Source of the DNA: an uncultured Hyphomicrobium sp.
GTDB taxonomy: Bacteria > Pseudomonadota > Alphaproteobacteria > Rhizobiales > Hyphomicrobiaceae
Assembly (NCBI RefSeq): GCF_902826555.1
Contig: NZ_CADEFI010000006.1
Coordinates: 69,723-120,958, forward strand
Direction of reading: 5' to 3'
Length of the DNA stretch: 51,236 bases
Shown: in pieces, positions 30,021-32,467 of the stretch
Layout of the letters: every line of letters starts with the position of its first letter
How positions within the stretch are numbered: position 1 is the stretch's first letter
The notes under the pieces: generated by a model
Told to the model about the DNA's origin: nothing
Databases searched by the model: none
What the model saw: the letters and a program-made list of their open reading frames with translations, nothing else
Made by a program: the position numbers and the translations under genes

Positions 30021-31152
30021 ATGCGCGCTGAAGCGCAAAAAGTCGTGACCTCGATCGAAGAGGCGCTCGTCCTCTTGAGGAGGTCTCTTTGACCCGGATC
30101 AGGCTGAGGCACGCCTAGCCGATCTCAACCGGCGCGCAGAAGATCCTGCGCTCTGGAACGACCCCGCGCAGGCCCAGAAAGTCATGCGCCAGCGCCAGCA
30201 GCTCGAACGCTCACTCAATGATTTTCGCCGCTTGGAGCGCGAGTTCGAGGACAATCTCACCCTGATCGAGCTTGGCGAAGCCGAGGACGACGAAGCCACC
30301 GTCACCGAAGGCGAAGGCGCGTTGAAGCGTCTCGACGAGGAGGTTCAGCGCAAGAGCGTCGAAGCCATGCTATCGGGCGAGGCCGACGGTATGGATACCT
30401 ATGTCGAGGTCCATGCCGGCGCCGGCGGCACCGAAAGCCAGGACTGGGCGCAGATGCTGGCCCGCATGTACATGCGGTGGGGAGAGCGCCGCGGCTTCAA
30501 GGTCAAGCTCATCGACGAGAGTCCGGGCGAAGAGGCGGGCATCAAATCGGCCACCCTCGAGATCGAAGGCGAGAATGCCTACGGCTGGCTGAAGACCGAA
30601 GCCGGCGTGCACCGGCTGGTCCGCATTTCGCCGTTCGACTCCAACGCTCGCCGCCACACCAGCTTCGCCTCCGTCACCGTCTACCCGGTGATCGACGATA
30701 CGATCGACATCGAGATCAATCCCGCGGACGTCGAGGTGAGCTTCGCCCGTTCGAGCGGCGCCGGCGGTCAGCACGTCAACCGCACCGAATCCGCAGTACG
30801 GCTGGTGCACAAGCCGACCGGGATCGTCATCTTCGCCCAGGAGCAGCGCTCGCAGCACCAGAACAAGGACATCGCCTTCAAGCGGCTCAAGGCGCGTCTC
30901 TACGAGCTGGAGCTGAAAAGGCGCGAGCAGAAAGCCTCCGCCGACCAGGCGGCGAAGACCGACATCGGCTGGGGCCACCAGATCCGCTCGTATGTTCTGC
31001 AGCCCTATCAGCTGGTGAAGGATCTGCGCACCGGAACACAGAGTTCGAGCCCGGACACGGTGCTCGACGGCGACCTCGATCCCTTCATCGAGGCAACGCT
31101 CGCCCAGCGCATGCGCGGCGGCTCCACCGTCGAAGTCGCCGACCTCGACTAA
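30021..31152 (+). CDS. prfB: Peptide chain release factor 2 with programmed +1 frameshift
   Basis: Ends translation at UGA and UAA. The gene is in two frames: ATG 30021 through CTT 30089 (23 codons), then a +1 shift skips T30090 and reading continues from GAC 30091 to the stop at 31152, for 376 aa in all. After the shift, [20 protein letters not shown] matches the RF2 N-terminus, confirming that both parts belong together. The tripeptide anticodon-like motif SPF ([12 protein letters not shown]) and the catalytic GGQ ([17 protein letters not shown]) are present. GGGAGG precedes the start. Annotated without the frameshift, the gene would wrongly start at 30184. Confidence 0.97.
30078..30093 (+). 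promoter_or_regulatory. prfB programmed frameshift site
   Basis: AGGAGG-TCT-CTT-TGA-C: internal Shine-Dalgarno, 3-nt spacer, slippery CTT, in-frame TGA followed by C. Spacing equals the E. coli site (AGGGGG-TAT-CTT-TGA-C). Low RF2 slows termination and lets the ribosome slip, so RF2 sets its own level. Confidence 0.97.
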
Positions 31153-31256
31153 TGTGTCACACGAGGCCGTAGGCCACGGATTCTGACGGCCGCTGCCTCG
31201 CTCTTTTGCCCTGTTCCCCAAGGGACAGCGCGCACCTCACAAAAGTTTAAGGTCCG

Positions 31257-31421
31257 ACCCGTGGGAACCAAAGCGCCCTCCCCGCTGTTCCCACTGTCCG
31301 CTAGAGCCGCTACCCCCGCGCTCTAGTGTGAGCGAGCGCCACTGCGGTTTCCCCCCAACCGCCTTGGTGGCGCTCATGACACGGTCGGCCCCCCAGTTCC
31401 CCGCTGGGGGGCCACTTTTTT
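31257..31421 (+). ncRNA. Predicted small RNA with four C-rich heptaloop hairpins
   Basis: About 165 nt with four successive stem-loops. H1 (31261–31294): 8 bp GTGGGAAC/GTTCCCAC plus inner 4 bp AGCG/CGCT, loop CCCTCCC. H2 (31301–31326): 7 bp CTAGAGC/GCTCTAG plus inner GC/GC, loop TACCCCC. H3 (31334–31375): 9 bp GAGCGCCAC/GTGGCGCTC plus inner 6 bp GCGGTT/AACCGC, loop TCCCCCC. H4 (31387–31413): 10 bp GGCCCCCCAG/CTGGGGGGCC, loop TTCCCCG, then a U-run. All four loops are 7 nt and C-rich, an anti-Shine-Dalgarno design known from C-rich-loop sRNAs. A weak promoter (GGGACA 31222, 17 nt, GTTTAA 31245) would start it near 31257. It could instead be a prfB 3' end or a leader of the next gene. Confidence 0.7.
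31387..31421 (+). terminator. Strong rho-independent terminator (3' end of predicted sRNA)
   Basis: Perfect 10-bp stem GGCCCCCCAG/CTGGGGGGCC with a 7-nt loop, followed by ACTTTTTT. It lies 235 nt past the prfB stop and about 100 nt before the aldo/keto reductase start. Confidence 0.92.
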
Positions 31422-31522
31422 GCGCGCAAGCACGGCGAGCCTCGGGAATTCACCGGATTGGCGGGCACGAGCCGGAGCACCTATATCCGTCTGCATCGAT
31501 CTTGCGACGGGAGAGGGCCATC

Positions 31523-32467
31523 ATGCAGTCGATGCAAACCCGCCGGAGTTTCTTGGGCTCCGCATCCGCCTTGTCCGCTGCGCTCGCGTTCGCCGCTTGG
31601 CAACGGACGGCGCATGCCGGTGCCTCATCCACAACCGAGGGCGCCCTCGCCATGCGGGCCATTCCGTCCACCGGAGAGAAGATCCCCGTCATCGGCATGG
31701 GCACCTCCGGCAGTTTCGAGGTCGCGGTTGGGAGCGAGGAATATACGGCACTGAAAGAGGTGCTGAAGATATTCTTCGCGGGAGGCGGCACCGTCATCGA
31801 CACCGCACCGACCTACAGCAATGCCGAGGACGTACTCGGCGCGCTGATCGCCGAGCAGAGCCTGCGGCCGAAAGCCTGGATAGCCACCAAGCTCTCGGGC
31901 GTCAGCGGTCGAGAAGCCGGCCGCGCCCAATTCAAAAGCACGCTTCAACGCCTGAAGACCGACAAGGTCGAGCTGCTCCAGGTTCACAACCTCGGCGATC
32001 TCAAGACGCAGCTCGCGCTCGCCCGCGAGCTCAAATCCGAAGGCCGGACCCGGTACGTCGGCGTGACCCACTATCTCGAATACGCCCACGACGAGCTTGC
32101 CGACATCGTCGCAGCCGAGAAGCCGGACTTCCTGCAGATCAACTATTCGGTGGTCACGCGCGGCGCGGAGAAGCGCATCTTCCCGCTGGCCAAGGATCTC
32201 GGCATCGCCATCATGATCAATCGCGCGTTCGAGGACGGAAAATTGTTCGCCCGCGTGAAGGACAAGCCGCTGCCGAACTGGACCGCGGCCGCCGGCATCA
32301 CCTCCTGGGCGCAGGCGTTCCTGAAATTCGCGCTGAGCAATCCGGCCGTGACGGTCGTGATCCCCGCCACCGGCAAACCCCACCGCCAGGCGGACAACTT
32401 GAAAGCCGGGCTCGGCCCCGACCTCACGGAAGACCAGCGCGCGTCCCTCGTCGCGGCCCTGGCGTGA
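31523..32467 (+). CDS. Aldo/keto reductase with Tat signal
   Basis: NAD(P)H-dependent carbonyl reductase, 314 aa from ATG 31523 (GGGAGAGGG upstream). A twin-arginine leader (TRRSFLGSASALSAALAF, cut near AHA) suggests export in folded form, unusual for an AKR that needs cytoplasmic cofactor. The tetrad is visible: Asp and Tyr in VIDTAPTYSNAED, Lys in ATKLSG, His in LLQVHNL. The barrel ends with NPAVTVVIPATGKPHRQADN, binding the cofactor phosphate region. The MFS gene begins 2 nt after its stop, so they form an operon. Substrate unknown. Confidence 0.88.
   Translation: MQSMQTRRSFLGSASALSAALAFAAWQRTAHAGASSTTEGALAMRAIPSTGEKIPVIGMGTSGSFEVAVGSEEYTALKEVLKIFFAGGGTVIDTAPTYSNAEDVLGALIAEQSLRPKAWIATKLSGVSGREAGRAQFKSTLQRLKTDKVELLQVHNLGDLKTQLALARELKSEGRTRYVGVTHYLEYAHDELADIVAAEKPDFLQINYSVVTRGAEKRIFPLAKDLGIAIMINRAFEDGKLFARVKDKPLPNWTAAAGITSWAQAFLKFALSNPAVTVVIPATGKPHRQADNLKAGLGPDLTEDQRASLVAALA

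Follow-up and report, generated by a model that had tools for sequence, protein, structure and literature searches.

We report a small RNA (sRNA) locus of Hyphomicrobium that is probably the gene of a new multi-C-loop, anti-Shine-Dalgarno-type RNA, which would be transcribed under a Clr-type activator of the Crp family and would pair with the start regions of several mRNAs. The window, which is the whole stretch of 51,236 bases analysed, comes from a genome of 3.72 Mb in 81 contigs; the closest named relative by prfB, among the 80 prfB loci kept, is Hyphomicrobium sp. LHD-15 (91%). The C-loop sRNA unit, from an upstream dyad to a terminal U-run, occupies 31212-31421 of the plus strand in the spacer between prfB (release factor 2; 30184-31152, plus strand, Pfam PCRF and RF-1) and an aldo/keto reductase (AKR) gene with a Tat-like signal (31523-32467, plus strand, Pfam PF00248). 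These two genes are its usual upstream and downstream neighbours and lie outside the unit. Conservation, covariation, promoter-like elements and the terminator strongly support the view that the locus is an unrecognised sRNA, as a previous sequence-only reading had claimed. That reading delimited the feature to 31257-31421, which holds for the hairpins and terminator, but the unit extends upstream to the dyad and the -10 element (31212-31253). It mentioned neither the dyad nor related units in other genera, and it did not recognise that the unit is independent of prfB.

The four consecutive hairpins with C-rich loops that had been noted from the letters are borne out on the plus strand: hairpin 1 (H1) at 31261-31294 (loop CCCTCCC, 31276-31282), H2 at 31299-31328 (loop TACCCCC, 31311-31317), H3 at 31334-31375 (loop TCCCCCC, 31350-31356) and H4 at 31387-31413 (loop TCCCC, 31398-31402). 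H4 is the stem of an intrinsic terminator that begins 235 nt past the prfB stop, as previously described, and both the sequence and a terminator scan place a U-run (U6) on the plus strand at 31416-31421. The 201-nt segment folds with -97.1 kcal/mol compared with -72.2 ± 4.3 kcal/mol for its shuffles (z = -5.8, 0/200 as good). The stems had been called perfect, but H1 and H3 contain 3-nt bulges (31363-31365 in H3) and H2 contains one bulged base. The claim that every loop is exactly 7 nt long is correct for H1-H3 in this genome, whereas H4 closes with a U-G pair and thus has a 5-nt loop unless this pair is ignored. Across the eight genomes of the genus, the loops measure 6-7 nt in H1, 7-10 nt in H2, 5-13 nt in H3 and 5-8 nt in H4. 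Because the lengths vary in the relatives, the equal size is incidental, and the C-tract is the conserved feature of the loops. When counted by a strict rule, the plus strand has 1.15 C-loop hairpins per kb and the 165 nt of the locus contain three; the minus strand also shows one cluster of three elsewhere in the window. We therefore did not accept equal 7-nt loops as evidence in themselves, since their lengths vary and the local count is only moderately unusual. From the argument that four equal C-rich loops are beyond chance, the conserved C-tracts survive; counting hairpins alone is weak evidence, so their reality has to be shown comparatively.

BLASTN detected the unit once in each of the eight genus genomes and in none of the 52 other relatives searched. 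In the alignment of these eight genomes, from which the consensus structure of 45 pairs was itself derived, 95.2% of the cells are paired, compared with 44-51% in slid controls. Two-sided changes are observed in 15 of the 45 pairs (6.5 ± 1.6 in shuffles, none of 500 reaching 15), and the loop C-tracts are kept in all eight genomes, so that the alignment proposed in the sequence-only reading as a check came out in its favour. One of five covariation measures, the number of further pair types, is the same as in the shuffles (26 versus 25.7). The covariation is concentrated in H2 (two-sided changes in 8/11 pairs) and H3 (5/10 outer pairs). H4 says little in this respect because its 11 pairs are without two-sided changes. 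In H1, GTGGGAAC pairs with GTTCCCA(C/T) in the four genomes without an insert, and a shifted helix forms around the same loop in the four that carry an insert of 3-4 nt. At the level of aligned sequences, covariation thus shows the predicted structure for H2 and H3 and for a small part of H1. Invariant columns make up 17/28 of the loop positions, 30/68 of the H1-H3 stem positions and 4/40 of the linker positions. The tracts fixed in all eight genomes are CUCCC in H1 and CCCC in H2 and H4, and CUCC is present within the H1 loop of all five sister-genus RNAs. On this comparative evidence, we conclude that the terminator and all four C-loop hairpins are genuine biological features.

No family of Rfam 15 matches the locus at its gathering score, in agreement with the RNA having been called unrecognised. 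A relaxed scan of 31150-31550 returned five families, all far below their cutoffs, the best being Rhizobiales-2 (17.9 bits versus 40), and the top matches listed in the literature on Hyphomicrobium sRNAs contained no description of this RNA. The reverse complement has G-rich loops, and the minus strand had accordingly been offered as an alternative functional RNA whose GGA loops sequester CsrA. This sponge is hardly credible, for the promoter-like elements and the U-tail are on the plus strand, and a scan of 31100-31540 found no minus-strand terminator.

In the spacer, conservation upstream of the RNA is highest in TGT-N10-ACAGC. Here, a 16-bp dyad, TGTTCCCCAAGGGACA, with the core GTNNCNNNNGNNAC at 31213-31226, occupies 31212-31227 on the plus strand and is a putative activator site by its match to the Clr consensus. 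Clr of S. meliloti is described in PMC10127613 as a cAMP/cGMP-dependent CRP-like activator, with the core site GTNNCNNNNGNNAC taken from HGTYHCNNNNGRWACA. On both strands of the window, the only full match to HGTYHCNNNNGRWACA is at 31212-31227, read on the minus strand; the plus strand has one departure from the full consensus (G for W) at these positions. The core occurs 17 times in the window (0.33 per kb). Counting the RNA together with its relatives, 19 of 21 loci carry the strict core: 8/8 in this genus and 5/6, 4/4, 1/2 and 1/1 in four others. The two loci without it are G085, a match of the R2 model described below, and G116, a training locus of that model that departs by one base.

A candidate -10 element, TAAGGT ([TC]ANNNT), is located at 31248-31253 on the plus strand at a fixed offset from the dyad core. 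The [TC]ANNNT motif recurs 21-23 nt past the core in 19 of 20 loci (G002 is the exception), compared with at most 2/20 in three-offset bins starting at 0-18 or 24-44. By -10 geometry only, with the start set 12 nt downstream of the element's first base, transcription would begin at 31260-31261 on the plus strand. A start around 31260 would put the dyad centre near -41. With the start so deduced, the position of GTNNCNNNNGNNAC near -42 and its constant distance to the -10 element correspond to the arrangement of a class II Clr/CRP promoter. Most Clr-activated promoters carry the site at -42 to -76 according to PMC10127613, and the predicted position of -41 is at the very edge of this published range. 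A sigma-70 scan gave no promoter at the sRNA locus, and no good -35 element was seen by eye. These sequence elements strongly suggest that the unit has its own Crp-type promoter.

The dyad could also be drawn as a fifth RNA hairpin. This was rejected because the RNA would contain a C-A mismatch in G002, G003 and G004 and a C-U mismatch in G001 while the DNA dyad core remains intact, and the dyad is therefore read as a protein site. An EcfG promoter (GGAAC/CGTT) was rejected as well, as the GGGAC/GGAAC in most rows is the right arm of the dyad and no CGTT follows at the required spacing in 20 rows. We infer from the consensus match that the protein reading the site is Clr-like; a different Crp-Fnr protein may read it instead. 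Homologues of Clr are patchy among rhizobia (PMC10127613). In a Filomicrobium MAG, the gene behind prfB (L078:5090-5461) encodes a protein of 124 aa that contains a cyclic-nucleotide-binding domain (PF00027), and the related RNA of G072 is probably located on this contig as well, at a distance of some 8-9 kb from prfB.

Dyads of the form CTGTYCCNNNNGGRACAG with at most one mismatch number 8-24 per genus genome compared with 4-10 for the reversed control, an excess as expected of a regulon. Thus, the genus-wide dyads perhaps constitute a Crp-type regulon. Several of them (e.g., L107, L118, L110, L113, L116 and L119) are intergenic by eye, and L107 and L118 have a common CTGTYCCNNNNGGRACAG dyad at orthologous places. 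At L160 (G115:C136:4811-4837), GTCACCGGCGGAAC is found together with AGCGC and the C-loop RNA is absent behind it; this site is perhaps another target of the same regulator.

The sRNA unit has prfB in front in seven of the eight genus genomes and the AKR gene behind in seven. In G002, the 18 kb retrieved contain no prfB upstream of the unit, which adjoins a divergent gene of cytochrome-c-like appearance (assigned by eye) and still has the AKR gene behind it. In G004, prfB precedes the unit, genes other than AKR are downstream, and the genome has no match to the AKR gene at E 1e-60. Both genomes keep the dyad, the hairpins and the terminator stem. Because the unit is kept where prfB (G002) or AKR (G004) is missing, we regard 31212-31421 as an autonomous gene, as judged from these comparisons. 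A role as direct regulator of the adjoining AKR gene only was rejected because G004 keeps the RNA without an AKR match. A CTATAT sequence at 31481-31486 of the window, which also occurs in the relatives and precedes the AKR start in five of seven genomes, probably serves the AKR gene as a promoter of its own, downstream of the sRNA terminator.

The hairpins might alternatively belong to the 3' UTR of prfB, as a read-through tail that protects or terminates the prfB transcript and is possibly processed to an sRNA. The prfB stop is on the same strand only ~60 nt from the dyad, and prfB is upstream in most of the genus (7/8), which agrees with such a tail. It is nonetheless unlikely, because the G002 unit, dyad included, stands beside a divergent gene with prfB absent from the fetched 18 kb, because copies of the unit in a sister genus adjoin different genes, and because conservation is poor between the prfB stop and the dyad, in contrast to the dyad itself, which is conserved.

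Relatives in other genera were searched with two RNA models, whose E-values are rough according to the tool's own note. R1 was built from this genus with the promoter left out, and R2 from five sister-genus loci (G029, G116, G117, G118 and G119) with the dyad included. Of 103 genomes from the family, R1 matched eight, each belonging to this genus; with strict filters, it matched one of 297 genomes from the order, namely the genome itself. Laxer filters applied to 24 other genera gave weak matches in 3/24 genomes at E up to 1. Matches in G024 (a long GC palindrome pair) and G009 (inside a coding frame) were judged to be chance. At L149 (G024:C73:42853-43014), which is the best R1 match outside the genus, near-identical long GC palindromes, GGCCCGGCGGATCCCCCGATCCGCCGGGCC, are ~50 nt apart. 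The match in G029 (E 0.17) has the same dyad, -10 element and C-loop hairpins at a different locus. A BLASTN search with this G029 stretch matched 9 of 102 genomes, including four further genomes of its genus, three of them via the terminator alone and G119 over a longer span that includes the dyad. The dyad is upstream in the loci of the G029 genus, with one mismatch in G116. Places in G031, G028, G088 and G115 and a second place in G118 were dropped, as the C-loop RNA was not visible there.

R2 matched the window at 31211-31421, from the dyad to the U-run, with E 4.6e-7, which was the best match in 167 kb. In direct searches of the other genus genomes, five matched at E 2e-6 to 2e-4 and G002 at 0.011; in G006, the match at E 0.0037 covered just the terminator, and a full-length one had E 0.22. 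Genome-wide with strict filters, R2 recovered the locus in only one of the eight genus genomes (G007) and missed it in G000. Over the 80 prfB loci (79 from other organisms and one from LHD-15), R1 and R2 matched only LHD-15 at E up to 1. On the sister-genus loci, R1 gave one full-length match (E 0.0016) and otherwise mainly terminators, and it scored the chance palindrome locus and the ar14-like L121 and L122 about equally. R1 alone therefore separates the sister-genus loci poorly from other C-loop RNAs. When applied to other C-loop RNAs and dyad loci, R2 reached 18.6 bits at best, in a partial match to L122.

A family search with R2 matched 27/102 genomes with an E cutoff of 0.5. Below 1e-3, there were 14 places in 11 genomes, which comprise the five training loci and nine new places in six genomes. 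Outside its training genomes, R2 matched units in three more genera and in one more genome of the sister genus. The strict core is present in seven of the eight new places read (G121:C53 was left out) and absent from G085. Among four weaker matches inspected (G119:C45, G061, G108 and G011), those in G061 and G011 resemble other C-loop RNAs, and the matches in G001, G003 and G004 fall at places other than the sRNA locus. Because R2 includes the promoter, its matches are biased to carry the dyad; this bias does not apply to the dyads of this genus or of G029, G116, G117 and G118, because R1 and the terminator-only BLAST matches did not use the dyad. Five genera of the family have units with the same promoter at other loci; the RNA bodies differ among these units, and three of the genera show clear C-loop hairpins. 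Two copies of the unit are ~300 bases apart in G022 and G121. The loops are longer or less clear in the single dyad-bearing copies of G083 and G072 and in the second copies of G022 and G121.

The changing neighbours of the unit and the paired copies ~300 bases apart in two genomes of another genus would fit a REP-like hairpin element, mobile or repeated, that plays no part in regulation. We consider such an element very improbable: the unit is single-copy in its own genome, where the second R1 match has E 7.4, and the dyad, loops and terminator are kept together as one unit with compensatory changes. Beyond the single sRNA gene that we favour, a family-wide interpretation can be put forward tentatively, in which a relocating gene encodes a multivalent anti-SD RNA that serves as the post-transcriptional repressing arm of a cyclic-nucleotide-dependent, Clr-like regulon. 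With the same reserve, it proposes stronger conservation of the promoter than of the RNA body, in which hairpins would undergo gain, loss and duplication and C-rich loops would keep reappearing.

Other C-loop RNAs were observed in the genus. L121:1501-1615 (G004:C4) and L122:1501-1581 (G006) each have two C-loop hairpins, with the loops TTCTCCTCCCT and TCCCCCC in L121, and are weak ar14 matches under the cutoff; their flanking genes, identified by eye, resemble a phage/GTA major capsid gene on one side and a head-tail connector gene on the other. A further C-loop RNA of a different kind, seen in three genus genomes (L123:1501-1613, L124:1501-1614 and L125:65-175), consists of GTCCCACCTATCCCCCCTAGGGGCGTCA followed by a C-loop hairpin and has no Rfam match. 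L174, from another genus, looks similar to it.

For the unit itself, we propose that a Crp-family activator of the Clr type, responsive to cAMP or cGMP, would bind the dyad at about -41 and activate transcription from ~31260, both positions being deduced from sequence. The transcript of ~160 nt would fold into three C-loop hairpins and the C-loop terminator, and the exposed CUCCC and poly-C loops would base-pair with several mRNAs, at Shine-Dalgarno or start regions rich in G, and reduce the translation of these mRNAs. The pairing step is deduced from the conservation of the loops and from precedents, and an anti-SD action is plausible. The CUCCC of H1 is complementary to GGGAG and the loops of H2-H4 to G-tracts; the SD-complementary core is present only in H1. 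With starts chosen mechanically, and hence crudely, GGAG or GGGG precedes 10 of 32 window starts compared with 431 of 4000 random 19-mers, and GGAGG precedes 1 of 32 compared with 74 of 4000.

The four repeated C-loops are also a multivalent design, and those of H2-H4 are plain poly-C without the SD-complementary CUCC core, as might be expected if the C-tracts of the sRNA served to titrate another RNA or an RNA-binding protein and did not pair with start regions. We know of no poly-C binding protein in this bacterial group, which counts against titration, as does the CUCCC of H1 kept in all eight genomes. Similarly shaped sRNAs, sX13 and ar14/NfeR1, are moreover reported to pair with mRNAs (PMC3771888, PMC10746234), and we regard titration as rather doubtful.

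Hyphomicrobium is a methylotrophic, denitrifying group. If the proposal of an anti-SD RNA under a Clr-type activator is true, this group would have its own undescribed regulatory RNA family, and cyclic-nucleotide signalling in Alphaproteobacteria would be linked to translational silencing by C-loop RNAs. The combination of a constant promoter with relocating C-hairpins would also make a clear case for the evolution of multivalent SD-targeting RNAs. By the account in PMC10127613, there are only few studies of sRNAs under a CRP, and the one Clr-induced sRNA named there, SMelC181, is of unknown function.

Among known RNAs, ar14 (NfeR1; RF02344) and the cuckoo, SmelA075, SmelA099 and CcsR anti-SD (aSD) RNAs of Alphaproteobacteria resemble the Hyphomicrobium sRNA in having two to four hairpins with C-rich loops, in which the stems vary and the loops are kept. 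ar14/NfeR1 silences ntrB via redundant aSD loops, has an identical CCUCCUCCC motif in every hairpin and is controlled by LsrB and NtrC (PMC10746234). The H1 loop of the Hyphomicrobium sRNA shares the CUCC core of this family, but CUCC(C) is confined to H1 and the remaining loops are poly-C rather than CCUCCUCCC; in addition, the Hyphomicrobium sRNA would be under a Crp-type site. The ar14 model (gathering score 58.8 bits) exceeded its cutoff in 0/8 genomes, had no match at the sRNA locus among the matches listed for these genomes at E up to 10, and was not among the relaxed Rfam matches on 31150-31550. Membership in ar14 was thus rejected, as the loops CCCUCCC, UACCCCC, UCCCCCC and UCCCC lack CCUCCUCCC and the model has no match. 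SmelA075 and SmelA099 have three and four aSD hairpins (PMC3927594). Their hairpin number, C-rich loops and free stems, as traits of the cuckoo/SmelA075-SmelA099 kind, are present at the locus, and the aSD core CCUCC is found in H1 only, in 6/8 genomes.

sX13 of Xanthomonas has three stable stems with apical 4C/5C loops and represses mRNAs with G-rich motifs (PMC3771888). These loops are very like those of H2-H4, whose plain C-tracts are closer to sX13 than to the CCUCCUCCC of ar14, although its host belongs to another class of bacteria than Hyphomicrobium. No sX13 family appeared among the relaxed Rfam matches, and Rfam may have no sX13 model. GsrN of Caulobacter activates katG, and its single 5' C-rich loop pairs with mRNA G-tracts; it is transcribed from a sigma-T promoter, GGAAC/CGTT (PMC5869019). 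The Hyphomicrobium sRNA shares the C-rich loop and the proposed pairing with G-tracts, whereas, unlike in GsrN and other EcfG-dependent sRNAs, no CGTT follows the dyad at the GGAAC-N16/17-CGTT spacing (20 rows). SMelC181 of Sinorhizobium meliloti is directly induced by Clr with cAMP or cGMP (PMC10127613). The likeness to SMelC181 concerns only the Clr-type control, which in Hyphomicrobium is predicted from the site. CyaR and Spot 42 of E. coli are CRP-controlled sRNAs from another class of bacteria, and the CyaR loop is SD-complementary; they are likened here by description and not by sequence. By analogy, the Hyphomicrobium sRNA may at most work like ar14, sX13, GsrN and SmelA075/SmelA099, and the description that suits it best is that of a new multi-C-loop RNA family, set apart by a Crp-type promoter and by C-tract rather than CCUCCUCCC loops.
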